64,000 bases of DNA from Parvibaculaceae bacterium PLY_AMNH_Bact1 (GTDB lineage Bacteria > Pseudomonadota > Alphaproteobacteria > Parvibaculales > Parvibaculaceae): the NCBI GenBank assembly GCA_032881465.1, contig CP126168.1, positions 2,170,001 to 2,234,000 of the forward strand, read 5' to 3'. The notes beneath the pieces were generated by a model. That model made no database searches, was not told where the DNA came from, and saw nothing but the letters and a program-made list of their open reading frames with translations. Numbering within the stretch: the first letter of the stretch is position 1; every line of letters begins with the position of its first letter. Shown here piece after piece: positions 15,553 through 38,693 of the stretch. Both the position numbers and the translations under genes were made by a program.

Positions 15553-18156
15553 CTACTCCATCGCCTCTTTCACCGCCGCAGCGAGCTGCTTGAGGCTGAA
15601 AGGCTTGGGCAAGAAGCGGAAATCGACAGAAGGGTCGAGGCTCTTGGCAAAGGCATCTTCGGCATAACCGGAGATGAAAATGATCTTGGTGCCCGGCCGT
15701 TTTTCCTGCAGCTGTTTCACCATGGTCGGCCCATCCATATTGGGCATCACCACGTCGCTAACGACGAGATCAATCGCACCATCATGGCTGTCGACAATCT
15801 CCAGCGCCACGTCCCCGCTCTCAGCTTCAAGGACCGTGTAGCCCCGCGTGCCGAGCGCCCGGACAGCAAAGGTTCGCACGGCGTCTTCGTCTTCGACGAG
15901 CAGGATCGTACCCTTGCCCGTAAGGTCAGGAGCAGCAGTTTCTTCAACTTGAGCCTGAACCTTCGCCGCTGCTTCTTCCTCTGTTTCAAAATAGCGCGGC
16001 AGGTAGATACGGAAGGTCGTGCCTTTGTCCACAGTAGAAAAGGCAAAGATGTAGCCGCCGGTCTGCTTAACAATCCCGTAGACCGTGGAGAGCCCAAGGC
16101 CCGTGCCCTTACTCACATCTTTCGTGGTGAAGAACGGCTCAAAGATCTTGCCCAGATGCTCTTTCGGGATGCCGCAACCTGTGTCCGTCACTTCGATAAG
16201 CACATATTCCGCCGGGGGCATCAGCGCATGATCCAGCGCCTTTGCGTCTTCAGCTGAGACATTGGCTGTGCGAATAGTAAGCCGCCCGCCGTCTTCCATA
16301 GCATCACGTGCATTCACAGCCAGGTTGATTACCACCTGCTCAAGTTGGTTCTGATCAACTTTCACAAGACCCAGATCCCGCTCATGGGTGATCTTAAGTT
16401 CCACCGTCTCGCCCAGAAGACGGCTCAGCAGATTGGACAACTCCGCCAGCTCATCAGTGAGGTTCAGGACCTTCGGCCGCAATGTCTGACGCCGCGAGAA
16501 GGCAAGCAGCTGCCGCACCAGGTTCGCAGCCCGGTTCGCATTCTGCTTGATCTGCATAACATCAGCGAAGCTCGGGTCACCTGCCTGATGACGCGCAAGA
16601 AGGAGGTCACAAAAGCCGATAATCGCAGTCAGCAGATTGTTGAAGTCGTGCGCTACGCCGCCTGCCAGTTGCCCCACAGCCTGCATTTTTTGCGACTGGG
16701 CGAACTGCATCTCAAGTGATTTCTGCTCACTCGTGTCAATGAGATAGGCAATGATGGAAGGCTGCCCCCCGGTCTCATTGGAATAGCTGGCAAAGAGCTG
16801 CGCAGTCTTCTCAATCTCCTCTCCCTGCTTCTGGAGGAATCGAAGATCAATCGGCCCGCGAGAGCCTCCAGACGACACAGCCCCATCGAGAAACTCTTTC
16901 AGAGCCACCCGGTCTTCTGCAACGACCAGGTCCGCAAATCGACTGCCCGCATCCGGCGTGCCTCCAACAAGTGTCACAAAGGCGGCATTCGAACTGCCAA
17001 GCACGCCGTCCTTGTCCAGCGTGGCAACACCGATTGGCGCATTATTGAAGAAGCGAGCAAACCGCATCTCCGCATCCCGCAGATGCGCTTCCGTATCGTC
17101 CTCTTCCTCCCGGAACATAACCACAGAGCGTGACGCACCGGGCGCTCCATCCACCGCCGGTGCAAAATTCTGCACAATGCGCACCTGAACCGGACCCTCG
17201 GGCCCTGTCAGATCAACATCGATGACCTGAGTTCCTTCTTCTCCGTCTTTTTCCTGAACGAAGGCATTCACATCACCAGCAACAAGGTCGCCGAACCTGG
17301 TTTTGCCTGACACCAGGTCTTCCGGTGACCGTCCCACCATCGTTGCGAACATCTGATTCACATAATCAAGCTGCCCGGAATCCTTCGCAGAGAAAAAGCC
17401 GAAGGGCGCATCATCCAGATAGGCCAAATATTTGTCGCGCCCCACTTGAGCTTGCGCCGCCGCAAGCCTCTCAGCGGTCATGTCTCTTAGAAGCCAGATG
17501 CTCGCACCACTCTTAGCGGCGGCACCTGTCAGCGGCTGAACGGCTGCCTTAAAGACGCGTTCCTGTCCTTGACCCGCGGGAGGCACGAACCGAAGCTCTT
17601 CCTCGTCCGCCAAGCCCAATCTGGCAGCCTGCGCCAATTGGTAGAGTTGCTCATCAACGCCAGCCTGCCCTGCAAGCAACCGCTCCAACGGCATGGGGCG
17701 GTCATGGGCATCAAGCCCAAGATGTCTATAAGCTTGGTTTGCAAACAGGACAGACCCGCGCCGATCTGTCACGAGACAGGGATCAGGCAGGCTTTCCAGT
17801 GCGTGACCAGCAACGCCGGTAACTTTGCCGCGCCCCACAATTGGGCTTGAGGGGCGCCCGGCTATAAGAGCCACAGTTGAGAAAAAGCCCACAGCGACCA
17901 GGCCGCCGATCAGTAAGTAGCCAGACGGCCCGGCAGCGCTCAAATTGAGAAAGACGAAGCCCCCGGCAGCGCCAGCCAGAAACAGGCCAATGAGCCCAGC
18001 CATCCCCAGCGAGTTACGCCATCGGTTCTGGTCTGAAAGTCCGGCCTTGTCAGAAGAGGCACGCGCAGGTCCACTGATTTCTGTCTTCGGATCAGAAACT
18101 GGTCCGTCGCCCCCAGCTCCATCTGCTCCGGGCCCATCCATCAGTGTATCGCTCAT
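15553..18156 (-). CDS. cckA: Cell-cycle hybrid histidine kinase CckA
   Basis: An 867-residue hybrid kinase. It has two N-terminal membrane helices (about residues 48-70 and 78-100), tandem PAS-like domains to about 480, and a HisKA with HDFNNLLTAIIGFCD (phospho-His about 503). The HATPase has N and G boxes (NLAVNARDAM, TDTGCGIP, GTGLGLSTVYG), and the C-terminal receiver has Asp about 801 in LVVSDVVMPNMDG. Domain order, motif and the position next to flhB and recA fit CckA. CckA sends phosphate via ChpT to CtrA, or removes it, controlling the cell cycle and flagellar genes. ChpT and CtrA genes are not in this window. Confidence 0.9.
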   Translation of the reverse strand: MSDTLMDGPGADGAGGDGPVSDPKTEISGPARASSDKAGLSDQNRWRNSLGMAGLIGLFLAGAAGGFVFLNLSAAGPSGYLLIGGLVAVGFFSTVALIAGRPSSPIVGRGKVTGVAGHALESLPDPCLVTDRRGSVLFANQAYRHLGLDAHDRPMPLERLLAGQAGVDEQLYQLAQAARLGLADEEELRFVPPAGQGQERVFKAAVQPLTGAAAKSGASIWLLRDMTAERLAAAQAQVGRDKYLAYLDDAPFGFFSAKDSGQLDYVNQMFATMVGRSPEDLVSGKTRFGDLVAGDVNAFVQEKDGEEGTQVIDVDLTGPEGPVQVRIVQNFAPAVDGAPGASRSVVMFREEEDDTEAHLRDAEMRFARFFNNAPIGVATLDKDGVLGSSNAAFVTLVGGTPDAGSRFADLVVAEDRVALKEFLDGAVSSGGSRGPIDLRFLQKQGEEIEKTAQLFASYSNETGGQPSIIAYLIDTSEQKSLEMQFAQSQKMQAVGQLAGGVAHDFNNLLTAIIGFCDLLLARHQAGDPSFADVMQIKQNANRAANLVRQLLAFSRRQTLRPKVLNLTDELAELSNLLSRLLGETVELKITHERDLGLVKVDQNQLEQVVINLAVNARDAMEDGGRLTIRTANVSAEDAKALDHALMPPAEYVLIEVTDTGCGIPKEHLGKIFEPFFTTKDVSKGTGLGLSTVYGIVKQTGGYIFAFSTVDKGTTFRIYLPRYFETEEEAAAKVQAQVEETAAPDLTGKGTILLVEDEDAVRTFAVRALGTRGYTVLEAESGDVALEIVDSHDGAIDLVVSDVVMPNMDGPTMVKQLQEKRPGTKIIFISGYAEDAFAKSLDPSVDFRFLPKPFSLKQLAAAVKEAME

Positions 18157-21980: not shown

Positions 21981-22361
21981 ATGGAACTCAGCGAAATACT
22001 CCGCTTCGCATCAGCACTCATCTTTGTTGTTGGTCTCATTGTTGCCTGCGCCTGGTGCGCCCGGCGCTTCGGCCTGGTACCGACAGGTCGCCAAACATCT
22101 ATGAACAAGCGCCTCGCGGTTACCGAAACGCTCGCTATTGATCCCAAACGCAAGCTTGTGATCGTGCGACATGACGACAGGGAACATCTCCTCCTCCTAG
22201 GAGATCAGGACACCATTCTGGAAGCAGGGCTTCCAGCTAAGGAGGAACTGGCGGTCGAAGCGACAGCTGACGCCAAACCTCTCAATGCGTCAGCTCTTAC
22301 CGGCCCTGTAACAGATCAGATGCAAAAGGTGGTCTCTCTCCTGAAGGAGCGCCGCGCGTGA
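21981..22361 (+). CDS. fliO: Flagellar biosynthetic protein FliO
   Basis: A 126-residue protein with one N-terminal TM helix (about residues 8-30) and a short FliO domain: KRLAVTETLAIDPKRKLVIV then DREHLLLLGDQDTIL. FliO is an assembly chaperone for FliP. Its stop overlaps the fliP GTG start by 4 bp, and the gene order fliO-fliP supports the call. Confidence 0.88.
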   Translation: MELSEILRFASALIFVVGLIVACAWCARRFGLVPTGRQTSMNKRLAVTETLAIDPKRKLVIVRHDDREHLLLLGDQDTILEAGLPAKEELAVEATADAKPLNASALTGPVTDQMQKVVSLLKERRA

Positions 22362-23113
22362 TTTTCTCCCCAAGTCAAAAGCATCTGGTACTTGCAGCTC
22401 TCGCAGGATTGGCGGTCTTCATGCTGTCAGCCCTCCCTGCCTCAGCAGAAACCATCAATGTAGATTTCTCGGAAGGCTTTGGCCTCACAGAGCGCGTTGT
22501 TCAGATCATCGCACTCGTCACGGTGCTCAGTCTCGCTCCCTCGATTCTGATCATGATCACCTCCTTCGTACGCATCGTAGTGGTTCTATCACTTCTGAGA
22601 ACCGCGATGGGCGTACAACAATCACCACCTAACTCAGTGATCATCAGCCTCGCTCTGTTCCTGACCGCATTTATTATGGCTCCGGTCTTCGAAACAGCCT
22701 ACGAGACCGGCATTCAACCGCTCATCAACGAAGAAATCGAAATGGGTGAAGCGCTGAGTGTTTCCTCCAAGCCGTTTCAGGAATTCATGCTGACCCAGGT
22801 AAGAGACAAAGACCTGCAACTCTTCATGGACCTGTCAAAAACACCTGCTGTTGAAGAACAGCAAGACATTCCTTTTCAGGTCGTCGTTCCTGCCTTCATG
22901 ATCAGTGAGTTGAAGCGCGCTTTTGAGATCGGGTTTCTTATCTTTGTCCCCTTCATCGTCATCGACATGATTGTCGCCTCAGTCCTCATGTCCATGGGCA
23001 TGATGATGCTGCCGCCCATCATTATCTCCCTGCCCTTCAAGCTCATCTTCTTTGTGCTTGTCGACGGCTGGCACTTGATTACGGGATCACTTGTTCAGAG
23101 CTTCGGTACATAA
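22358..23113 (+). CDS. fliP: Flagellar biosynthesis protein FliP
   Basis: A 251-residue export-gate protein. It has a signal sequence (cleavage near ALPASAE), and the strongly conserved LVTVLSLAPSILIMITSFVR, RTAMGVQQSPPNSV, LFLTAFIMAP and VPAFMISELKRAFEIGF. It uses a GTG start coupled to fliO by a 4-bp overlap. It is convergent with the large exported protein gene at 23291. Confidence 0.96.
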   Translation: MIFSPSQKHLVLAALAGLAVFMLSALPASAETINVDFSEGFGLTERVVQIIALVTVLSLAPSILIMITSFVRIVVVLSLLRTAMGVQQSPPNSVIISLALFLTAFIMAPVFETAYETGIQPLINEEIEMGEALSVSSKPFQEFMLTQVRDKDLQLFMDLSKTPAVEEQQDIPFQVVVPAFMISELKRAFEIGFLIFVPFIVIDMIVASVLMSMGMMMLPPIIISLPFKLIFFVLVDGWHLITGSLVQSFGT

Positions 23114-23290: not shown

Positions 23291-26200
23291 TCAATTGATG
23301 GCTGCGCCTGCGCCATCCAAAGGCTCTGAGAAACTGCCTTCCATGCTCTGAACGAAACTGTCCAAAGTGTCGATTGACGCAACACTACGAGCAAGATCCC
23401 GGAAGGCCACACCATTGGTTTGAATAGGATCAGTGACCACAGCAAATGCCGCTGCATCCGGACTCGCGCTCATGAAGTCACCGAATTTTGCTCGCATCCG
23501 CTCCAATCCGATGGCGTTATCATCCAACGAGAAGCTAATGGCAGCACGCAAAACCTGAAACCGTTCGTCTTCGGTCAGAGGAAGCGGGTCGCGCCAGCGC
23601 TCACCAAGCGCAGTTTCGAAATTGGTGGCAGCGACCGCCCACTGCTGTGACTCCCAGTGAATATTCGCGACCAGATCAGCCACGCCCTCCCCTTCCGTTT
23701 CTGAAAGAAGATCCAATGCATGGTCGTATAGCCCAAGGTCGGTCAAAGCCCGTGCCTCAAGCAGTCGGCGTTTGTGTGTCAGGTCTTTTGGCAGCCGCAC
23801 CTGTTTGGTCGAACGAATAGCCCGAAGCGCCGCGTTGGGCTGGCGGTTCATGAGCTCAATCAAAGCAAGTTTCGCGGCAACCTGTGCCTGCGCTGTTCCA
23901 CGGAGCCGGTTGTCCACCTGATGTCGGAGCAGTGTCGCCGCCTTGTCTAACAAATCAACCTCAACCATCCGGTCGGCTAGATTGCGAATAAGCGCATCGC
24001 CACGTCGGCCAATCGGCGTCAGCTCCCGGAATTCATAGTAGATGGAGAGTGCGTCAACCGGATCCATATCGTCAGCGCCGCCGTCCAGATAAAGATCAGT
24101 AAAAGTCTCTGTCATGGCAGAAGCAACCCGGCGCGCCCGTTCGGTTTCCGGGAAGGTTCCAACGGCCATTCGCCAGATTTCCAGGCCCTCTGCAACTTCG
24201 CCCTTCGCAATCAACAAACTGCCTAGCCGTTCAAGAACAGCAAGCTCAAGATCATCGCCGCGCCAAACCAGTCGCAGGGCGTGTAGTTCATTGGTGAGCT
24301 CTTCGTCACTCATTGCACCCAGTTCATGCCGGAGATTGGCATGCGCAAATCGCGCACGAGCAAGTATGGCCCTCTGGTCAGACGTCAGGAGTTGATCATA
24401 TATCTCCAGAGCTTCGTCGGCCCGTCCAAATGCTTCGAAGAGACGCGCACGAGTGAGTGCGGCTTGCTCTACCCAGCGGCCATTGTCAGCACCAGCTGGG
24501 ATCCGATCTAGATTGAATTCGACACTGCCAAGATCACCCGTCGCCAACGAAGCCTCTGCGGCCTTCATCCTAAACAGCGCCTGCAAATCAGGCCCATAAA
24601 TCTCAAAAGCTTTCTCTGCCTGTTCGAAAGCCAGACGCGCATCCGCCCACTGGGTCAATTCCGCGTAGGCCACACCCCGCCAGAGCGAGGAATGTGGATC
24701 ACCATCCAACGCGGGAAAAGCCAGATCTGCAATAGCTTCTTCTGGCCGCGCCATCATGATCTGCGCAACACCGCGAAGTGCACGGAAGCCAGGATCATTT
24801 TCCAGCGTCTCAGACGCCAGCACTGCACCCTGCAACATGGTGTAGGCTTCAGTCCCGAGGCGATAGCTCAAAAGGAATTTTGCGTATTTTATGCGTGCTT
24901 CGGCAACATCGTCCTCTTCAGCAAGTGCCACAGTGCGTTGGTGGAACTGTTTGCGCTCGATGAAATTCCTGCCTGGTGAATAGCGCCACCGCTCGAAATC
25001 CATGCGCCCGGGTGCGGACGGATCACCTACACGAGAGGCCGTCGGAGCGCTGCCGGAATAGTCGGGGCCATCGGCTGCAGAAAGCGTCAAACCAGACCCC
25101 CGCGAAACAGTTACACCACGCGGGGTCTCGCTGACATAGAGATCATCTGCCCGTGACACGAACGCTAGTCCCTGTGCGGTAGACAGAGCCTCAAACTCAA
25201 CAAAATTGCGCGGCGCAAGAAGCCCCTGTGGCGGTCCTTTGGCTGTAACAATTGCAATCGTATCGTAGACCACAGGATCACGAACCCAATGAATACTTCC
25301 AACGCTCTCCACATCAAAAAGCACCTGCGGTTCGCCTGTTGCACTCCATGCGCGCGTTATCCCAACTGGCCTCGTTGGTTCAACAATCATGTCGCCCAGA
25401 GTCACAATCCAACGATTGTCACGCTCGCCTGCGGTAATGAGCACCCGTTCAGGCGGTGCAAAACGAAGAGCACTCGCCCCATCAAGTTCGACAATTTCTG
25501 GATCGCCAAGTCGTTCTCGGACCACCGGCCCAAGGTCAGACAGGTTAAAGTCTGTTTCGCGATCAAAAACCATCCAAACACGATTATCCCGCTGGAAGAT
25601 CGCCGCTTTGGTTGGTTCTACCCAAGGGAATGTCAGGCGAATGCTGCGCTCAGTAAGGTCGGAGGTAACAGGAAGCGCAGCTTGATCAATCTCGGTCGGA
25701 TTCGGATATGTGGAGGTAAGCGCCTCTGCACCGTCTGACTTTGAGCTATCTTCCAACAGGGAATCTTCTGCCTCGGCAACAATTGTCGGCTCAGCAGCAG
25801 TTTGCTCGGCGGTGGGGATACTGGGAACCATTTGCTCTGGAGGAGCCGACGCCAACGCTGGCGCTTCTTCACCCGCGGTTTCCGCTGCTGCAGCTTCTTG
25901 TGCCGCTGCTGCTCTCTGGCTCTCCGGCTCTTCAATCCGCTCTGTCGGTGCCCTGCTAGGAACAGGGAGCAGAGGTGTTGGGGCTGTCGAAGCGATAGGC
26001 CGAGCATCTTCCGGTCGTGCTGGCGCGACATCCAGCACCACACTTAGGTCCTCTCGGAAGTCGCGGACTTTGACACCCGGTTCGGTCTCAACAAACACCG
26101 TAAGTCGACCACCAGATTTCTCCGCGCGCGCAGATTTGACATAAGCTGGCGGATCAACGCGAAGTGCGGCCAGAGGAAGATCTGCGATCTGGTCAAACGT

Positions 26201-26863
26201 GATTGTGATCCGGTTGTCTCTGAAGGCTGTCGAATAAAGAACCGGACGGTCCCAGTCAAACGCCAGACGTGTAAAGCTTGGCTGCTCGCCGACACGCAAT
26301 GCCACGCGCGGCAGGTCCTCCACAATCTCCAAGGCTTGTGGTCCAAGCTCCGCGAATTGAGCGGCCCGCGCCTGTAATTCTCGTTCCTCTTCCGCAATAC
26401 GCGCGACAACATCCGCGGGCAACGGCGGTGGATCACCGGCCCAACCAGGTGCCAGCAAATCAATGTAAAGCTCATGCCCCGCTTTTCTGGCGTGAATCTT
26501 GAAGTCCGCCTTCATCGCCATTCGTAATGTGCGATCATCCCCATCCATGCGAACCAGCGCAAGATATCGCGGCATCCGACGCAACAAGTCATCAATATCA
26601 ATCTCTAGGGGCCGCTCAAAAGCGACAACCAGCACACCGGCGGAAACGAGAGTTTCATACCCGGGCAATCTGGCATCCGGTACCGTTGGATCTTCTGGCA
26701 ATCCGGTATCTGGCCAAGAGAACACCAGGCGACCGAAGCCATTTTTCTCAGCCCCCGACAATCGAACATCATCAGCCGCGCTAGCAGGTGCAATCTGGCT
26801 ACCTGAGAGCAACGCAAGCGCAACAAGCGACCGTTGGAAGAAAGACAAAAATACGGGGTGCAT
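23291..26863 (-). CDS. Giant exported protein with beta-rich N-terminus and helical-repeat C-terminus, flagellar-cluster associated
   Basis: A 1190-residue protein with a signal peptide (about residues 1-29, ending ASAAD). Residues 30-290 contain repeated beta-rich blocks (GRLVFSWPDTG; TRLAFDWDRPVLYS; RLTVFVETEPGVKV) that look AMIN-like. An Ala/Glu/Pro-rich linker covers about 300-375, and another beta block (RSIRLTFPWVEP) follows. The C-terminal half is alpha-helical with TPR-like spacing (RLAFEQAEKAFEIYGPDLQA; RADEALEIYDQLLTSDQ). Its start shares one base with the stop of the upstream MotB-like gene (TAATG). It may play a scaffold role like rhizobial MotC, but that is inference. I do not recognise a named family. 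Confidence 0.75.
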   Translation of the reverse strand: MHPVFLSFFQRSLVALALLSGSQIAPASAADDVRLSGAEKNGFGRLVFSWPDTGLPEDPTVPDARLPGYETLVSAGVLVVAFERPLEIDIDDLLRRMPRYLALVRMDGDDRTLRMAMKADFKIHARKAGHELYIDLLAPGWAGDPPPLPADVVARIAEEERELQARAAQFAELGPQALEIVEDLPRVALRVGEQPSFTRLAFDWDRPVLYSTAFRDNRITITFDQIADLPLAALRVDPPAYVKSARAEKSGGRLTVFVETEPGVKVRDFREDLSVVLDVAPARPEDARPIASTAPTPLLPVPSRAPTERIEEPESQRAAAAQEAAAAETAGEEAPALASAPPEQMVPSIPTAEQTAAEPTIVAEAEDSLLEDSSKSDGAEALTSTYPNPTEIDQAALPVTSDLTERSIRLTFPWVEPTKAAIFQRDNRVWMVFDRETDFNLSDLGPVVRERLGDPEIVELDGASALRFAPPERVLITAGERDNRWIVTLGDMIVEPTRPVGITRAWSATGEPQVLFDVESVGSIHWVRDPVVYDTIAIVTAKGPPQGLLAPRNFVEFEALSTAQGLAFVSRADDLYVSETPRGVTVSRGSGLTLSAADGPDYSGSAPTASRVGDPSAPGRMDFERWRYSPGRNFIERKQFHQRTVALAEEDDVAEARIKYAKFLLSYRLGTEAYTMLQGAVLASETLENDPGFRALRGVAQIMMARPEEAIADLAFPALDGDPHSSLWRGVAYAELTQWADARLAFEQAEKAFEIYGPDLQALFRMKAAEASLATGDLGSVEFNLDRIPAGADNGRWVEQAALTRARLFEAFGRADEALEIYDQLLTSDQRAILARARFAHANLRHELGAMSDEELTNELHALRLVWRGDDLELAVLERLGSLLIAKGEVAEGLEIWRMAVGTFPETERARRVASAMTETFTDLYLDGGADDMDPVDALSIYYEFRELTPIGRRGDALIRNLADRMVEVDLLDKAATLLRHQVDNRLRGTAQAQVAAKLALIELMNRQPNAALRAIRSTKQVRLPKDLTHKRRLLEARALTDLGLYDHALDLLSETEGEGVADLVANIHWESQQWAVAATNFETALGERWRDPLPLTEDERFQVLRAAISFSLDDNAIGLERMRAKFGDFMSASPDAAAFAVVTDPIQTNGVAFRDLARSVASIDTLDSFVQSMEGSFSEPLDGAGAAIN

Positions 26864-27495
26864 TAGGTTCTGCCTCCCCGCTGATCGCTTATGATCAGTA
26901 GCAATGCGTCGTCTGCGAGCCCTGGCGTGACAAAACGCTCAATAGACCGTGAATACCCTGCTTGTCGAAGGGCGGCTGCGACGCTATCTGCACGATCAAA
27001 CGCAAGTGTCCAATCTTCTGATGGCACCGAAGACATGACGCTGATTGGGTTAGCGACACCTGACAGGATACGGGAGAGGTCTGCCATCACACCACTTGCC
27101 AGAGGTCTCAATGCGCTCCCATCAGAAGCAAACGCGAAATCCGGAGCAAAGCGGATTACAAGACGCCCACCGTCCACCTGTTGCGACAAAGGTCCACCAT
27201 CGCCAAGCGGCACAAGACCGCGGTCAGAGAACACAGCAGCGAGATAGTCGACCGTCAATGTCGGCAGCGAAGAGGTTTGAATGCTGCGGGCGTTCCGCTG
27301 ATGGGCCGTCTGGTCAACAGCAGAGACACCCGGTCCACCAACAACACTCCCATCACCGCGTCCGCTAAGCGGCGACGACATGGCATAAATCAGCACGAAA
27401 AAGGCTACGAGAATGGCCGTCAGATCAGCGAACGTAACCAGCCAAAGGGAACCTTCGCTCTGGGTTTCATTGAGGGCCTGTTCCGAGGCGTTCAC
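26863..27495 (-). CDS. MotB-like protein with conserved TM aspartate
   Basis: A 210-residue protein. Its N-terminal TM (about residues 16-38, SLWLVTFADLTAILVAFFVL) aligns without gaps to MotB (W-x-[IV]-x-[YF]-A-D ... AFF), keeping the Asp that binds the proton in MotA/MotB stators. The C-terminal part is OmpA/MotB-like (DWTLAFDRADSVAAALRQAG), expected to be periplasmic. No motA is present in the window. It is coupled to its neighbours: 4-bp overlap with the upstream MotB-like gene and 1-bp overlap with the downstream giant gene. It could serve as a stator or as a structural partner. Confidence 0.75.
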   Translation of the reverse strand: MNASEQALNETQSEGSLWLVTFADLTAILVAFFVLIYAMSSPLSGRGDGSVVGGPGVSAVDQTAHQRNARSIQTSSLPTLTVDYLAAVFSDRGLVPLGDGGPLSQQVDGGRLVIRFAPDFAFASDGSALRPLASGVMADLSRILSGVANPISVMSSVPSEDWTLAFDRADSVAAALRQAGYSRSIERFVTPGLADDALLLIISDQRGGRT

Positions 27496-28178
27496 GATGA
27501 TGCCTCCGGAAGGGTGAAGAACCGGAAGCTCACAAAATCGCGCCGCGCATCAGTAACGCCGACAGCAAGATGGCCTTCCGGCGTGCCTGCAACTGACAAC
27601 AGTCGAGCCACCGAAGCGGCGCGGCGAACATCTAATCTATTTTGGGATGCGGCAGGAACAAGGATCGCAACATGCCTATCCTTGGAACCGTCAGCAAGCG
27701 CTGCACCCAGCGCCGCAAACAACATGCGCTTATCCGCGCGAATGGCAGCGGCGCCCTCAACAAAAAGCACTGAGACATCAAGCGTAAGATCCAGTGACCC
27801 ACCAGTCAGGACGCTCTCTTGCCCCCCGACGTCTGAGAAAGCAGCAATCACTGCATTTGAAAAATCACCTGACGCCGGCTGTGACCCATCCTGCAATACG
27901 GGCAATGTGCCACCGCTAAGGCGGCCGGTTTGATCAACGGTCCCTGCATTTAAGGCACCAAAGGCGTCCTGAATACCGCCAATCACAGGCCCAACCCGCT
28001 GTTCATCAAAAGACGAGCCCGAAGTAAGCACAAAGAAAAAGGTGAGCAGCATCAAGAACAGCGAAAGCTGCAACGTGTGCGTGCTGTCAGCACTGGTCGA
28101 CGCGGGCACAGCAGCAATTTGCCCCTGCCCATCCATCAGCGCGACGCTGGCTTTATGATCTTGATCACTCGCTGCCAC
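27492..28178 (-). CDS. MotB-like protein lacking the TM aspartate
   Basis: A 228-residue protein with one TM helix at about residues 36-56 (LQLSLFLMLLTFFFVLTSG). Aligned on its FF pair, the position of the MotB proton-binding Asp is a Ser. The C-terminal region (LTLDVSVLFVEGAAAIRADK then NRLDVRRAASVARLL) is OmpA/MotB-like. It is the first gene of a tightly coupled trio with the Asp-containing MotB-like gene and the giant exported protein. The loss of Asp suggests a non-conducting partner. Function not known. Confidence 0.7.
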   Translation of the reverse strand: MAASDQDHKASVALMDGQGQIAAVPASTSADSTHTLQLSLFLMLLTFFFVLTSGSSFDEQRVGPVIGGIQDAFGALNAGTVDQTGRLSGGTLPVLQDGSQPASGDFSNAVIAAFSDVGGQESVLTGGSLDLTLDVSVLFVEGAAAIRADKRMLFAALGAALADGSKDRHVAILVPAASQNRLDVRRAASVARLLSVAGTPEGHLAVGVTDARRDFVSFRFFTLPEASS

Positions 28179-28413: not shown

Positions 28414-29136
28414 TCACGGCAGCGCTGGCGCTTCTTCCAGCAGAGATGTCATGTCCAGTTCGGAGGGAATAGCCCCGCCGGTTGCCAATTCAACAGTCAG
28501 TTCCTGCGCCGCAATTGGGTCCATCGCCGCCAAAATGGGAGCCATTTTGCGTTCACTCATGCGCCGCACAACCTGGATCAACACATCCATGTCGAGTTGC
28601 CCCAGGATCCGGGCGGCATCCTTTGGTTTCATGTTGGAATACATGGTCACTAACGACGCTAACTGCTGCTCCTGCGCTTCTTCCTGTACGCCGAACAATA
28701 CCTCGATGCGTCCTTCTATTTCCTTGAGCTCATCAATGCGTGCCTGGACCCGACGCTCAGATGCCTCAAGCAATCTGGCCTGCATCTGAATATCCCGCTC
28801 CCGCATATCCAGTGCTTTTCGGCGCTGGCTCAAACTGCGAAGGACGTTCTGTTCTGAATTTGACGGACGATCAAAGTCTTCGGGCGCGAGACGCTCCGAC
28901 GGGTCGGCTTCCACAATTTCGGACTCTGCGCTCGCTTCGCCACCAGCCTCCGCCTCTTCAGTCGTTTCGGCGTTTGCCGCTGCATCTTCCTCCGCATATG
29001 CAGGTTGAACGCCACTCAACAACGCATCAACTCCAACACCGATAGAAATCAACTTCAAGCCCAACAACGCGGCCGCGCAGACCATCAAAGATGGTAGCAA
29101 GCGAACCTGTGGAACTTTGGAAACGTGGGATGTCAT
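28414..29136 (-). CDS. MotE-like flagellar protein (MgtE N-domain type)
   Basis: A 240-residue protein. It has one N-terminal TM or signal-anchor (about residues 13-35), an acidic linker, a coiled coil (RKALDMRERDIQMQARLLEASERR in part), and a C-terminal MgtE-N-like helical domain (YSNMKPKDAARILGQLDMDV, MSERKMAPILAAMDP). This is the layout of rhizobial MotE, a periplasmic chaperone for MotC. It lies 7 bp downstream of the DUF6468 gene, in the fliL-fliM operon. The name motE is withheld because orthology is only by layout. Confidence 0.75.
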   Translation of the reverse strand: MTSHVSKVPQVRLLPSLMVCAAALLGLKLISIGVGVDALLSGVQPAYAEEDAAANAETTEEAEAGGEASAESEIVEADPSERLAPEDFDRPSNSEQNVLRSLSQRRKALDMRERDIQMQARLLEASERRVQARIDELKEIEGRIEVLFGVQEEAQEQQLASLVTMYSNMKPKDAARILGQLDMDVLIQVVRRMSERKMAPILAAMDPIAAQELTVELATGGAIPSELDMTSLLEEAPALP

Positions 29137-29142
29137 AAGATA

Positions 29143-29628
29143 CTACCGAGCGCGTTTGAGTGCATCCAGAAGGGTTTGATTGAGGCCATCTTCGAGCCGT
29201 CCTGCGTCTGCCGGCGTCATACCAACCTCAGCTGACGGCATAGGCACGTGCTTTTCCCGCTCACGGGGTTTAAGGGCAGCTGGTATTGGCGTCGATTGCG
29301 ACACACGCGAGCGCCCTGTTCCGAGCTGGCCGGCCACCTTGCTCCCGGACGCCACCATGACGGAGAGTTCGTCAGCCAGAGCACGTGCATCACGCATCTG
29401 CTGCGTAAGACCATCATCAAGCTCGCCACTCACCTGCTTCATCTGCGAGATGCTGATTTCAGCCCGTGACGTAGCAGTGTTGAGTTGATCTATCGTTTGC
29501 TTCAATCCGTCCTGTCCGGACCGAAGGGCTTTGAGTTTCCGGTCAAGCATGGCGCAGTAAAAAATGGTCGCACCCAGCAAAACGGCGACCAATCCGTCGA
29601 GCAAAAGATCTGTTGGGATATTCATCAT
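29143..29628 (-). CDS. DUF6468 flagellar-cluster protein
   Basis: A 161-residue protein with an N-terminal TM helix (LLLDGLVAVLLGATIFYCAML) followed by a coiled-coil region (LKALRSGQDGLKQTIDQLNT) and a short polar tail ending LNQTLLDALKRAR. The family is found beside fliM in alphaproteobacteria; its role is unknown. Its start overlaps the fliM stop by 4 bp. Confidence 0.72.
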   Translation of the reverse strand: MMNIPTDLLLDGLVAVLLGATIFYCAMLDRKLKALRSGQDGLKQTIDQLNTATSRAEISISQMKQVSGELDDGLTQQMRDARALADELSVMVASGSKVAGQLGTGRSRVSQSTPIPAALKPREREKHVPMPSAEVGMTPADAGRLEDGLNQTLLDALKRAR

Positions 29629-30806
29629 TGCTCTGCCTCATCAGGTTCGGACTCTGCAAAAACCGAATTCAGAACGTCTGGCACACCTTGTGTAAGACGA
29701 ATGGCAACATTGCCGCCAGTACGCCCCATTCTGCCCTTCATCAGAGGAATATCGCCACACCGCATATCAACTGTGGAGTCAGGCGATGCATTGAGCATGA
29801 GCGTCTGTCCAACCTCAAAACCCATTACATCGCCCAGAGTCATCTGCTGCTCGTCAAGAACAGCATCAATCTGGACTTTGGTTGACCAGAGCTCGGTCGC
29901 CAAATGGCCTTCCCAAATGGAATCACGACCGAATTTTTCACCCATGAACATCTGCAAGAGGAGTTCGCGAATGGGTTCGAGTGTTGCGTATGGCAGGAGC
30001 ATTTCAATACGCCCGCCCCGATCTTCCATATCAATACGGAGCTTAATCAGGATCGCCGCATTGGCAGGACGCGCAATGGCGGCAAAGCGTGGGTTAGTCT
30101 CCATGCGATCAAGTTCGAATGTCACTGGCGATAGAGGTTCAAATGCCGCCTTCGCGTCATCCAGCACCACCTCAATCATCCGTTCGACAAGATTGAGCTC
30201 AATCGTTGTATAGGGGCGACCTTCGATACGCATGGCAGCCGTACCGCGACGCCCGCCAAGCAGAACATCAACGATCGAATAGATCAGATTGGAGTCAACG
30301 GTGAAGAGACCGTAATTGTCCCATTCTTTCGCCCGAAAAACGGAGAGAATAGCAGGAAGAGGAATGGAGTTCAGATAGTCGCCAAAACGAATGGACGAAA
30401 TATTGTCCAGACTGACTTCCACATTGTCCGATGTGAAATTGCGCAAGCTCGTCGTCATCAACCGCACTAGGCGATCAAAAACAATTTCGAGCATCGGCAG
30501 CCGCTCATAAGAAACCAACGCTGAATTGATGATCGCGCGGATACCAGTCCGTTCCCCATCATCATTCTCATCGACTTCAAACCCAAGCAGGCTATCGATT
30601 TCATCCTGGTTCAGAACACGCTCAGACGCTCCGTCTGCTTCAAGCTCAGACGCACCATCGTCATCGTCGGCCATCGCCGCCCATTCTTCGGCCATGGCAT
30701 CATCATCGCCACCGCCTCCATCGGCATCTGCTTCATCGTCGTCCCCGGCTTCCGCCTCCCAGGCAGCAGCCATCTCGTCCTGATCCAGATCTTCGTCATC
30801 CGCCAT
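29625..30806 (-). CDS. fliM: Flagellar motor switch protein FliM
   Basis: A 393-residue C-ring switch protein from ATG 30806, with GGAG upstream; a TTG 12 bp earlier is a weaker start. The N-terminal ~70 residues are an unusually long Asp/Glu/Ala-rich stretch before the conserved VLNQDEIDSLLGF CheY-binding peptide, which is therefore displaced inward. The middle CheC-like domain (GGRRGTAAMRIEGRPYTTIE) and the C-terminal SpoA domain (GDIPLMKGRMGRTGGNVAIR) are intact. It lies downstream of fliL. Confidence 0.93.
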   Translation of the reverse strand: MADDEDLDQDEMAAAWEAEAGDDDEADADGGGGDDDAMAEEWAAMADDDDGASELEADGASERVLNQDEIDSLLGFEVDENDDGERTGIRAIINSALVSYERLPMLEIVFDRLVRLMTTSLRNFTSDNVEVSLDNISSIRFGDYLNSIPLPAILSVFRAKEWDNYGLFTVDSNLIYSIVDVLLGGRRGTAAMRIEGRPYTTIELNLVERMIEVVLDDAKAAFEPLSPVTFELDRMETNPRFAAIARPANAAILIKLRIDMEDRGGRIEMLLPYATLEPIRELLLQMFMGEKFGRDSIWEGHLATELWSTKVQIDAVLDEQQMTLGDVMGFEVGQTLMLNASPDSTVDMRCGDIPLMKGRMGRTGGNVAIRLTQGVPDVLNSVFAESEPDEAEQ

Positions 30807-30836
30807 GGCGGTCTCCAATATCTGAAGCGAAGCGCA

Positions 30837-31349
30837 TTACTGCACCACAACTTCCTTGAACAAGACGTCACGCACCTCATGCGGCTCAACAGCCAGGTTG
30901 AGGCGACGAAGCAATTCTTCTTTCATGCGAACAATAGCCGCTGAGCCATCCAGATCCTCCGGACGCAGCTCGCGCAAATAGACCTGAAACCCATCTACAA
31001 TTCGTGGCATCAACAATTCTATCTCCGCAAGAATTTCCGCGTTGGGAACTTCAAGCGACACGCGCATTTTGAGATAACGGGTTGGACCACTGTCAGTGCT
31101 GATGTTCACAAGAAACTCAGGCATGTCATAGAAAACAGGTGGCTCCGCCACCTCTTCCACATCAGCCATCTCTTGCTCATCACCACCACCAAAAACACCA
31201 AAGGCAAACAGCGCACCAACAATGGCTCCGATCACGACAAGTGCAGGAAGTGCAATGTAAAGAACGATGACCTTACCGCTCATCTTCTTCTTTGCGCCTT
31301 CTTCATCGTCCCCTTCTTCGAAGTCGATGTCGGCATCCGTATCGCTCAT
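30837..31349 (-). CDS. fliL: Flagellar basal body-associated protein FliL
   Basis: A 170-residue single-pass inner-membrane protein from ATG 31349 (MSDTDADIDFEEGDDEEG). The cytoplasmic N-terminus is acidic, the TM is about residues 27-50, and the periplasmic domain contains FYDMPEFLVNISTDSG and RYLKMRVSLEV, matching FliL. It modulates stator function. A longer in-frame ORF to 31646 has no family match. It is first in the fliL-fliM-DUF6468-motE run and divergent from flgF. Confidence 0.92.
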   Translation of the reverse strand: MSDTDADIDFEEGDDEEGAKKKMSGKVIVLYIALPALVVIGAIVGALFAFGVFGGGDEQEMADVEEVAEPPVFYDMPEFLVNISTDSGPTRYLKMRVSLEVPNAEILAEIELLMPRIVDGFQVYLRELRPEDLDGSAAIVRMKEELLRRLNLAVEPHEVRDVLFKEVVVQ

Positions 31350-31496
31350 AGCCTCATATCCCTCGTTCTCGACTCCGTTAACAAACGGTTGTGAGATCTT
31401 GCAATCAGAGACAAATACTCGCCGATGGTGGTTAACGAAGCGTTGCCGCTCCCCTAACTCATCCACAGGACTTGCAATGAAAGGCAAGTTTTGCCG

Positions 31497-31509
31497 GGCA
31501 ACCTCTGCC
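31497..31509. promoter_or_regulatory. GGCA-N5-TGCC dyad, copy 2 (fliL/flgF)
   Basis: GGCAACCTCTGCC in the divergent fliL-flgF region, 62 bp upstream of the sigma-54-type promoter of flgF. A near-CtrA site (TTAA-N7-TTGC at 31432-31446) lies on the fliL side. Confidence 0.55.
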
Positions 31510-31571
31510 CTCCGGCTGGGCCTGCCGCCTGGAAAAACCTCTAAGTTACTGATTATGAAGACTTTTTCGAT

Positions 31572-31587
31572 TGGCACAGGCGATGCA
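31572..31587 (+). promoter_or_regulatory. Sigma-54-type promoter for flgF
   Basis: TGGCAC-AGGCG-ATGCA has the invariant GG-N10-GC spacing of sigma-54 promoters and a perfect -24 element. Transcription would begin about 31599, giving a leader of about 68 nt before flgF (31667). Confidence 0.6.
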
Positions 31588-31666
31588 ATGAGCTTCACCG
31601 GGAAACGGGAGCGAAAGCTTCCAGCGGCGGCAAATTGCCATCGCAAACAAGAGACGGACGAAACAG

Positions 31667-36570: not shown

Positions 36571-36783
36571 ATGCGTTCGTTCGTCAAATGGATTTCCAAG
36601 ACCCGTCCAGCCTTGCTCAGCTTGGTTGGAACGCTTTTGGTAACCTCGGGATTGCTGCTGCCCACCAGCGCAGAGGCAACTTCTCGCATTAAAGACATCG
36701 CAGATGTTGAAGGTATCCGGGAAAACCAACTCATCGGCTATGGCCTTGTTGTTGGCCTTGATGGCACAGGCGACTCGTTGAAC
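36571..36783 (+). pseudogene. flgI: Truncated flagellar P-ring protein FlgI (5' 71 codons)
   Basis: ATG 36571 begins a FlgI precursor with a signal peptide (about residues 1-34, ending SAEA) and the conserved mature start [20 protein letters not shown] then [14 protein letters not shown]. The match stops exactly at 36783, where the left end of the IS3-family element begins. The frame ends inside the IS at 36822. FlgI is normally about 370 residues, so ~300 are missing. The remainder of flgI does not reappear beyond the IS; instead flgL sequence on the other strand follows. A functional P-ring protein cannot come from this locus. Confidence 0.9.
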
Positions 36784-36812
36784 TGTCCGTCGTCAGGGTT
36801 TTTGGAACAGAT
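36784..36812. repeat. IS terminal inverted repeat, left
   Basis: 29-bp terminal repeat, 23/29 identical to the inverted right end at 38267-38295; the mismatches are at positions 4, 5, 7, 16, 17 and 19. Confidence 0.85.
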
Positions 36813-36857
36813 GGCTGCGTAGTTTAGCGGAGAGATTGGCTCATCTGTTGGTTGATA

Positions 36858-37838
36858 TTAGGCAGCTTGATTGCGGTATTGCAAACGCCGTTGTCTGATT
36901 GTGTTTTGTTTGATCCTTTCTCTTTCTAGCAAGATGGTCTGACCGCGACCGAAGTAAACATCAGCCGGTGTTAGGTTTCCGATGCTTTCATGGTAGCGGT
37001 GGTGATTGTAGTGCTCAACGAAGCGTTCAATGCTGGCGTTGAGATCACCCGGCAGGAAGTAGTTCTCCAGCAAGATGCGGTTCTTGAGGGTTTGATGCCA
37101 GCGCTCGATCTTTCCCTGGGTTTGTGGATGGTATGGAGCACCACGAACGTGATCCATACCTTGATCATTGAGCCAGTCGGCCAGTTCTGCTGAGACATAG
37201 CTGGCCCCATTATCAGACAGCAGTCGTGGCTTGTGACGAACAGCCACCTGATCAAACCCGGATGCTTGTAAGGCCAGCTCCAAGGTGTCCGTGACATCGC
37301 TCGTCTTCATCGTGGTGCAGAGCTTCCAGGCAATGACATAGCGTGAGAAGTCATCCAGGATCGTTGAGAGATAATACCAGCCCCAACCAACGATCTTGAT
37401 GTAAGTAAAGTCAGTCTGCCACATCTGGTTGATTGCGGTCGTCTTATCACGGAACTCGTTGGCCGCTTTGATCACGATGAATGCAGGACTAGTGATCAGG
37501 TCATGTGCCTTGAGGAGCCTATAGACACTGGCTTCTGACACGAAGTAGCGCTGTGTATCAATGAACCTCACAGCCAGCTCGCGTGGCGACAGCTCTGGTT
37601 CCTCCAACGCAAGGTCAACAATCTGTCGCCGGATATCGTCTGGAATGCGGTTCCAGACCCGCGCAGGCTTTGGCGCTTTATCTTCCAATGCATCTGCACC
37701 GCTCGTCAGATACTTATCGTACCAACGATAGAACGTGGTGCGAGGAATGCCGAGTTTGTCGAGAGTTTGTTTAGCTGACAGGTGTGATTGCTCCACCATT
37801 CGTATTATCTCAAGCTTCTCGGATGCGGGGTACCTCAT
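36858..37838 (-). CDS. IS3-family transposase OrfB
   Basis: A 326-residue DDE transposase. An N-terminal helix-turn-helix (LSAKQTLDKLGIPRTTFYRW) precedes an rve integrase core. The acidic triad is visible as TDFTYIK, SDNGASYVS and GKIERWHQTLK. The start overlaps the OrfA stop by 4 bp (ATGA), and the frame is -1 relative to OrfA. It can be made either by reinitiation or as an OrfAB fusion by slippage at an A7 run (37867-37873). The coding frame appears intact. Confidence 0.93.
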   Translation of the reverse strand: MRYPASEKLEIIRMVEQSHLSAKQTLDKLGIPRTTFYRWYDKYLTSGADALEDKAPKPARVWNRIPDDIRRQIVDLALEEPELSPRELAVRFIDTQRYFVSEASVYRLLKAHDLITSPAFIVIKAANEFRDKTTAINQMWQTDFTYIKIVGWGWYYLSTILDDFSRYVIAWKLCTTMKTSDVTDTLELALQASGFDQVAVRHKPRLLSDNGASYVSAELADWLNDQGMDHVRGAPYHPQTQGKIERWHQTLKNRILLENYFLPGDLNASIERFVEHYNHHRYHESIGNLTPADVYFGRGQTILLERERIKQNTIRQRRLQYRNQAA

Positions 37839-38209
37839 TCGATGTCCTCCCCATCTCCGATCATGCTTTTTTTGAGAAGGCGAAGCTCAAGCGCTTGCTC
37901 AGCGACAACCTCTTTCAGATCACGCGCCACACGGCGCAGACCCTGTACTTCGCTGGTGTTCGCTTCACGGGCAGTGTCGCCTGCCAACCGCTTGCGCCCG
38001 GCCTCCATGAACTCCTTTGACCAGGAGTAATACTGGCTCTGGGCAATGCCTTCCTGGCGGCACAGCTCGGCAATTGTGTCGTCGCCTCGTAAGCCCGCCA
38101 ACACAATCCTGATCTTGTCTTCAGACGAATAGCGTTTGCGTGTTTTGCGGCGGATATCCTTCACCGTGCGATCTGCAGCATCGGTATGGCGTTCGGGTGT
38201 ATCTCTCAT
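37835..38209 (-). CDS. IS3-family transposase OrfA
   Basis: A 124-residue DNA-binding subunit. It has the family pattern KRYSSEDKIRIVLAGLRGDD, TIAELCRQEGIAQSQYYSWS, and a C-terminal leucine zipper (LRRVARDLKEVVAEQALELR). ATG 38209 is preferred over the adjacent ATG 38212 because GAGGAG then lies 6 bp away. The A7 run near its 3' end is a probable -1 slippage site leading into OrfB. Confidence 0.92.
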   Translation of the reverse strand: MRDTPERHTDAADRTVKDIRRKTRKRYSSEDKIRIVLAGLRGDDTIAELCRQEGIAQSQYYSWSKEFMEAGRKRLAGDTAREANTSEVQGLRRVARDLKEVVAEQALELRLLKKSMIGDGEDIE

Positions 38210-38266
38210 CATTCACTCCTCAATGGTGAAGATGAACCAGAATCTCTCCCTTAGGAAATCAGCCTA

Positions 38267-38295
38267 ATCTGTTCCATAGGCCCTGACGGCATACA
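38267..38295. repeat. IS terminal inverted repeat, right
   Basis: 29-bp right end, inverted relative to 36784-36812 (23/29 identical). It abuts the truncated flgL at 38296. Confidence 0.85.
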
Positions 38296-38693
38296 ATGTG
38301 TCGCCCTTCGAGTTCGGTATTCAGCAATGATGCGATCTCGTCAAACTGAGAAGCAGCAGACAATTGTAATTGGGTTTGACCAGCGCCGGTGAGATCAAAT
38401 GACGTCGTCAGAGAATCTGTACGAAGCGTCGATGCGATTTCATCCATCCTGGTCAATGCTGTTGACTGCACGCCAAGCCGCAGGTTCACCAGCTCCATCG
38501 TTTTTACATAACCTTCGAGCGAACTGATCTGATCGCGAAGGGAAAGAACAACAGAAGCATCGGATCCAAGCCCACCATAGGTCTCAGCCTTCTTGCCGGT
38601 CACCAATTGTCGACTGAGATCATCCTGCGTTGACTTCAACGCATTGACTTCGTCCTGCATCCGCAATGTTCTGGCGAGGGATGAAATTTCCAT
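38296..38693 (-). pseudogene. flgL: Truncated hook-filament junction protein FlgL (5' part)
   Basis: ATG 38693 opens a flagellin-like N-terminus (RMQDEVNALKSTQDDLSRQL, VTGKKAETYGGLGSDASVVL, ASLLNTELEGRHI), matching FlgL for about 130 residues. The match ends at 38296, where the IS right end begins. Reading continues 12 codons into the IS and stops at 38259. FlgL is normally about 300 or more residues, so the C-terminal half is missing. It lies 19 bp downstream of flgK in the flgE-flgK-flgL order. Confidence 0.88.

Follow-up and report, generated by a model that had tools for sequence, protein, structure and literature searches.

The 64,000-nucleotide stretch of the Parvibaculaceae bacterium PLY_AMNH_Bact1 genome analyzed here (hereafter the window) encodes, within a run of flagellar genes, two small MotB-like proteins, B1 and B2, and a large exported protein. 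We propose that B1 and B2 form the B-subunit pair of a second flagellar stator, whose A subunit would be a PomA-like protein encoded elsewhere in the genome, and which would be held by the large protein acting as a spoke; judged from sequence comparisons, we assign this reading a probability of roughly 0.58. The new part is the mismatched B pair, in which B2 possesses the channel aspartate (Asp) and B1 does not; the spoke and the associated E-ring protein are already known from other bacteria. The three genes are arranged as follows.

27492-28178, minus strand: B1, Asp-lacking MotB/PomB-like protein of 228 amino acids, GTG start
26863-27495, minus strand: B2, Asp-bearing MotB/PomB-like protein of 210 amino acids, GTG start
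23291-26863, minus strand: large exported protein of 1190 amino acids, MotK/FssB/PflA-like spoke

An earlier reading of this DNA, made from the sequence only, had described three overlapping minus-strand genes at this place, and its coordinates, strands and lengths are all correct. B1 and B2 overlap by 4 base pairs, and B2 and the large gene by 1 base pair, an arrangement that suggests matched amounts of the three proteins. Among 60 loci examined across the class, B1, B2 and the large gene lie on one strand in 33, and 25 of these 33 have a B1-B2 gap of either -4 or -1; almost every locus inspected has B1 immediately upstream of B2. The overlap of B1 and B2 is hence a design that is conserved across relatives.

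B1 and B2 are homologues of MotB

Profile comparisons mark both B1 and B2 as true MotB homologues. The B1 protein consists of a transmembrane helix (residues ~33-54), a plug-like helix (59-74) and an OmpA-like domain (~120-222); an OmpA-like domain is also present in B2, which in addition exceeds the Pfam cut-off for MotB_plug (expectation value, E, 2.9e-9). When class-wide profiles were compared with the PDB, structures of PomB/MotB were the best matches of both B2 (1e-35, including the C-terminal domain) and B1 (6e-12), and both profiles match these proteins across the transmembrane helix and the OmpA domain. In hhalign comparisons, canonical MotB aligned with B2 at 99.5%, and B2 aligned with B1 at 99.0% over the transmembrane helix and the OmpA domain, whereas canonical MotB aligned with B1 at 59% and in the OmpA part only. 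Since this direct match is the weaker one, B1 is tied to MotB mainly via B2 and via the PDB matches. The best-matching protein families of B2 are those of the PomB/MotS/MotD type, as opposed to the canonical MotB of these genomes.

The predicted model of B1 is of low overall confidence (predicted local distance difference test, pLDDT, 59), with values mostly between 70 and 80 in the OmpA part; this part matches structures of MotB, PomB, YfiB and OmpA with E values from 1e-5 to 1e-8. Structure prediction hence yields a MotB/PomB/OmpA fold for B1, and the single N-terminal transmembrane helix and OmpA/MotB-type C-terminus that had been ascribed to both small proteins are borne out by this fold together with the MotB_plug and PomB/MotB profile matches. 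In a phylogenetic tree with some long branches and a bootstrap that had not fully settled, B1 forms one clade (support 100/100) apart from the canonical MotB clade; the tree leaves the single-clade status of B2 relative to MotB undecided.

The channel residue and the peptidoglycan-binding motif

In an ungapped profile alignment, Asp24 of B2 (D24) stands opposite serine (Ser) 39 of B1 (S39), which occupies the position of the channel Asp. The Asp in one protein and the Ser in the other that had been read from this locus are thus real, and the difference is conserved in relatives: the channel Asp is present in 43 of 44 B2 sequences (the exception, L083, is a doubtful match) and the tryptophan (Trp) six residues before it (W18 in the protein studied here) in all 44, whereas the 42 B1 sequences possess Ser (29), glycine (7), alanine (5) or Asp (1) at the corresponding place, that is, one of the three small residues in 41 of 42. 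The sole Asp-bearing B1 protein (L070:7301-8059, from genome G070) has a transmembrane helix that is closer to that of its own B2 than to those of other B1 proteins, and its Asp looks like the product of gene conversion by this B2.

The state of the B1 channel helix, which is devoid of both the Asp and the Trp, bears on a second interpretation, according to which homodimers of B2 would operate in the PomA-like stator, and B1 would be a MotB-derived accessory located outside the ring of A subunits, either a scaffold piece or an assembly factor, to be likened to PflB or FlgX of Campylobacter. The position of the B1 gene among scaffold genes and the strong divergence of the B1 clade from both MotB and B2 speak for such a role. 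However, B1 retains the rest of the MotB-type transmembrane helix (LLAFFILLNSIS), the plug-like helix and the OmpA fold, it practically never occurs in the absence of B2 and only rarely without the PomA-like gene, and the helix of the G070 protein carries an Asp and resembles its own B2, as if it were still functional in that position. We consider this accessory role of B1 to be rather unlikely.

The Asp residue of the OmpA motif through which peptidoglycan is bound is present in the B2 proteins of 27 of 44 relatives. B2 of the lineage studied here lacks the usual histidine-x-Asp peptidoglycan motif, which most relatives keep, and this loss would fit a stator that is held by a spoke.

A comparable Asp-bearing and Asp-lacking pair is encoded elsewhere in this genome. 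A TonB-type operon (L150:1077-1879; G000 C1 ~2584576-2585378) contains two tandem ExbD-like genes, one of which encodes a protein with the channel Asp (LIDVV), while the other encodes asparagine at this place (LINIV). This parallel to B1/B2 suggests that pairing with a partner devoid of the Asp may be more widespread among 5:2 motors.

A PomA-type gene co-occurs with the B pair

No motA gene was found within the 64-kb window, in keeping with the sequence-only reading, but this absence does not extend to the genome as a whole, which possesses canonical motAB genes (contig C1:1785660-1786719) and a second A gene, of the PomA type, between fliN and flbD (C1:2608790-2609557). The latter gene follows fliF-fliG-fliH-fliN and precedes flbD (all of these neighbors except flbD were named by eye), and it is accompanied by flbD in 30 of 30 loci and by fliN in 29 of 30. 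When this genome was searched with MotA_N (PF20560), only the canonical A subunit was recovered; the PomA-type gene surfaced only with PF01618. The best NCBIfam match of its product is PomA (2.7e-60); canonical MotA matches MotA1. Three threonine (Thr) residues that are reportedly shared by all sodium-driven stators (PMC10374538) have their equivalents (Thr158/185/186) in the PomA-type protein of this genome and in 24 of 24 readable loci. The same gene arrangement is found on plasmid AZO_p2 of Azospirillum lipoferum, where the only annotation of the A gene is that of a MotA/TolQ/ExbB proton channel family protein. In some genomes, another PomA-like gene, with one MotB-like gene (~225-235 amino acids) as its neighbor, is found at a distance from the trio of B1, B2 and the large gene (G127 C3:69615-70597, G260 C6:703463-704497 and similar loci).

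In a sample of 289 alphaproteobacterial genomes, the large gene is present in 158 at the default threshold and in 143 at a stricter one, and 137 of these 143 genomes also encode FlgI. Both B1 and B2 are found in 76 genomes, and the pair spans ~48 family-level groups by our own count. The sets used for the co-occurrence analysis were defined by chosen E cut-offs (1e-79 for the PomA-like protein, whose scores show a clear break, and ~1e-11 for B2), with a few weaker trio matches added by position. If the PomA-like gene encodes the partner A subunit, it was predicted to track the pair rather than the large gene. In genomes with the large gene, the PomA-like gene is present in 72 of the 76 with the pair and in 5 of the 67 without a called pair. 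Direct inspection shows B1 beside B2 in three of these five (G143, G203, G283), a weak B1 match lies ~6 kb from B2 in G152, and the contig of G074 begins inside the large gene; only G074 thus represents the PomA-like gene among the 62 large-gene genomes with neither B gene (Fisher p ~3e-29 for 72 of 76 against 1 of 62). A genome from a nearby genus (G034; genus g4) has neither the pair nor the PomA-like gene, and in G186 the locus is cut by a contig end. B1 and B2 are inseparable, as they essentially always occur together.

The proposal that the pair forms a stator accessory without a motA of its own is therefore probably wrong: B1 and B2 co-occur with a PomA-type A subunit that is encoded among flagellar genes elsewhere, which makes a second stator likelier than an accessory. 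Canonical MotAB-type genes are present in 47 of 47 genomes tested, and this finding would also suit an interpretation in which B1 and B2 constitute a structural, non-conducting pair in a rim or spoke that holds canonical MotAB, with the PomA-like protein having another function. The gene run that the pair shares with MotE and a PflA-like protein, and the degenerate peptidoglycan motif of this lineage, point in the same direction; the near-invariant channel Asp and Trp of B2 and the fact that the PomA-like gene tracks the pair rather than the spoke argue against it, and we regard a purely structural pair as improbable. Still less credible, in our view, is a use of the single canonical MotA by B1:B2, which would lead to mixed stators and would require another cause for the co-occurrence with the PomA-like gene. 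Most trio genomes indeed possess one MotA_N-type gene, but the affiliation of B2 to the PomB/MotS/MotD-type families, and not to the canonical MotB of these genomes, as well as the co-occurrence itself, speak against shared use.

The large protein and the MotE-like protein resemble a known spoke and E-ring

All of the parts that the sequence-only reading had recognized in the large protein were found: an N-terminus that looks like a signal peptide, AMIN-like beta blocks, three in number (~33-137, 187-281, 400-490), a disordered linker (~283-394) and a TPR superhelix (~623-1178). The beta blocks are related to one another (hhalign 98% for blocks 1 and 2, 95% for blocks 2 and 3), and some relatives score above the AMIN-like or AMIN cut-offs of Pfam. 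Among 350,542 PDB chains, the best fold match was chain K of 9HMF, a Campylobacter motor scaffold (E 9.4e-11), a chain that is probably PflA, judged by its length; given the low-confidence model and the low TM-scores (template-modelling scores), this match is a resemblance and not a proof of descent. The gene for the putative E-ring protein lies next to B1.

28414-29136, minus strand: MotE/FlgY/FlbB-like E-ring protein with an MgtE_N-like C-terminus and a match to the FlbB NCBIfam model

That a MotE-like gene is located nearby is supported by the match to the FlbB model (E 2e-7), by a match to MgtE_N just under the cut-off (E 3e-5) and by conserved synteny in the flagellar locus. Through its parts and the place of its gene beside that of the E-ring protein, the large protein resembles the MotK/FssB/PflA-type spokes. 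Both proteins are of a known and already published kind, and the notion of an undescribed scaffold does not hold for them, as they resemble the MotE-MotK, CC_2059-FssB/CC_2058 and FlgY-PflA pairs.

In the Fla2 system of Cereibacter sphaeroides, an E-ring protein (MotE) and an exported AMIN/TPR protein (MotK) are encoded in one cluster and are needed for rotation, and motK mutants have paralyzed flagella (PMC10954123). The same kind of cluster is present in Caulobacter, where FssB (CC_2058) and CC_2059 are likewise needed for rotation (PMC7885107, PMC11870540); the loss of FssB also results in paralyzed flagella (PMC7885107), and CC_2059 and CC_2058 have been proposed to correspond to FlgY and PflA, i.e., to E-ring and spoke (PMC11870540; PMC13023049). 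No B1/B2 pair is reported for either organism in the accessible parts of these accounts, and the large protein studied here differs from MotK and FssB by its size (~1190 amino acids) and its three AMIN-like blocks. With the FlgY-PflA spokes of Campylobacter it shares a beta domain, a linker and a stator-positioning TPR superhelix (PMC12222027, PMC11870540), but Campylobacter has a rim of PflB, a protein with a transmembrane segment and TPR, and the locus studied here a MotB-like pair. The MotB protein of C. jejuni is reportedly kept apart from the peptidoglycan by the scaffold (PMC11870540). The Campylobacter cage proteins FcpMNO were considered as relatives of B1/B2 and rejected, as they are PilMNO-like (PMC11870540). 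Another candidate relative of B1 that was considered is MotF of R. sphaeroides, a protein of the Fla1 system.

Architecture of the proposed stator and its relation to known motors

In the reading that we favor, a second stator, of the same type as PomAB/MotPS, would have B1 and B2 as its B subunits and the product of the PomA-like gene between fliN and flbD as its A subunit. In each unit, a single B1:B2 heterodimer would be encircled by five copies of the PomA-like protein (5:1:1). As only B2 carries the ion-binding Asp, the unit would possess one ion site instead of two, and the Thr triad of the A subunit points to Na+ as the coupling ion. The large protein, as a spoke on the MotE E-ring, would receive and hold the B1:B2 stator and thereby anchor the unit; the overlap of its gene with the genes for B1 and B2 would be explained by this probable function. 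The heterodimeric MotB-like core that the sequence-only reading had envisaged is a likely one, since two true MotB homologues essentially always occur together, and it is from this that we infer a physical dimer. More tentatively, we envision a natural 5:1:1 single-Asp stator whose A-subunit ring would turn on half the ion sites, with ~5 ions per turn as opposed to ten, that is held by a PflA-type spoke and not by peptidoglycan, and that is present in about two fifths of the flagellated Alphaproteobacteria beside an ordinary MotAB.

Several observations weigh against the proposed stator. A MotB protein without the Asp is dominant-negative over the wild type in E. coli, so that a one-Asp unit must differ from this in some way. 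The genome G070 has the Asp in both B1 and B2, and the loss is hence not universal. The co-occurrence was observed within one class by a statistic that ignores shared ancestry, and four genomes with the pair lack a clear PomA-like match. Finally, the A gene is located away from the B genes, unlike in most stators (PMC12505986).

The proposed unit resembles the Na+-type PomAB and MotPS stators through its PomA-like A subunit with the Thr triad and through the channel Asp and OmpA domain of B2; it differs from them in that its two B proteins are unlike each other, one being devoid of the Asp, and in the location of the B genes, which lie far from the A gene and are joined to that of the spoke. 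To our knowledge, every solved 5:2 motor has two identical B chains, and stepping models rest on two Asp residues taking turns. A conserved Asp-less partner lets one ask if two ion sites are needed at all, and the pair opens the questions of the torque and ion cost of a one-site motor, and of stator holding by a spoke versus the cell wall. With this pair, a large bacterial class would gain an additional stator, probably of the sodium type, whose A gene is annotated there only as a member of the MotA/TolQ/ExbB family.

One MotA homologue with two MotB homologues is also found in the AglR-AglQ-AglS gliding motor of Myxococcus, which is not a flagellar motor, and for which it is stated as unknown if the MotB homologues form hetero- or homodimers (PMC9389320). 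Likewise, Aquifex aeolicus possesses two MotB proteins per one MotA (motA-motB1-motB2); the transmembrane regions of MotB1 and MotB2 are 97% identical, the two proteins were tested separately, each as a chimera together with MotA, and, in contrast to the pair described here, no loss of the Asp is reported in the accessible parts of that study (PMC4525482). No account of the B1/B2 pair or of its PomA-like partner between fliN and flbD was found in the open-licence PMC papers, to which the search was limited, with subscription papers lying outside it.

The flagellar locus and the disruption of flgI

The trio is part of a longer run of flagellar genes, with these neighbors.

29143-29628, minus strand: conserved DUF6468 protein, between fliM and motE
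29625-30818, minus strand: fliM, a member of the same gene run, named by order and by synteny with an annotated Azospirillum locus
30837-31646, minus strand: fliL, with a predicted start that is probably too far upstream (relatives have ~170 amino acids)
22358-23113, plus strand: fliP, converging on the large gene and forming the 3' border of the run, named by synteny

The nearest relatives share a gene order of fliL-fliM-DUF6468-motE-B1-B2-large gene, with fliO-fliP facing it, and this order extends to Pacificispira spongiicola, with a large protein of 28% identity. A flagellar role of the trio, as had been suspected, is supported by this constant position in the flagellar cluster of relatives and of the class, and by the near-confinement of the large gene to FlgI-positive genomes. 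Almost all loci have the DUF6468 gene (window 29143-29628) placed between fliM and motE. In many relatives, cheY-like and cheZ-like genes (named by eye) are positioned between motE and B1, so that a chemotaxis switch pair and the proposed second stator are there encoded in one gene run; a motA beside the pair was considered and rejected, as these extra genes are cheY-/cheZ-like on inspection of their sequences. A search of plasmid records for a named trio recovered no more than a spoke-like gene adjacent to motAB in Azospirillum AZO_p5 and, in AZO_p2, the PomA-like gene; an Indioceanicola record carries no annotation. Farther away (window 15553-18156), directly after flhB, lies a gene for a PAS/histidine kinase/receiver hybrid (CckA-like by eye), whose position is kept as far as Pacificispira.

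In the strain studied here, the gene for the P-ring protein FlgI (window 36571-36783) is cut after ~71 codons by an IS3-type insertion sequence (IS) element at 36784-38295, with transposase reading frames at 36858-37838 and 37835-38212 and inverted ends at 36784-36812 and 38267-38295. No other FlgI is encoded in this genome, and sister genomes carry an intact one; as flgI is interrupted and no second FlgI is available, this strain is now probably unable to make a working flagellum, though its trio is intact. The far side of the IS element (window 38259-38693) runs straight into the 5' part of a flgL-like gene (named by eye), a configuration like that left by an IS-mediated deletion, in which the remainder of flgI and the 3' part of flgL have apparently been lost.

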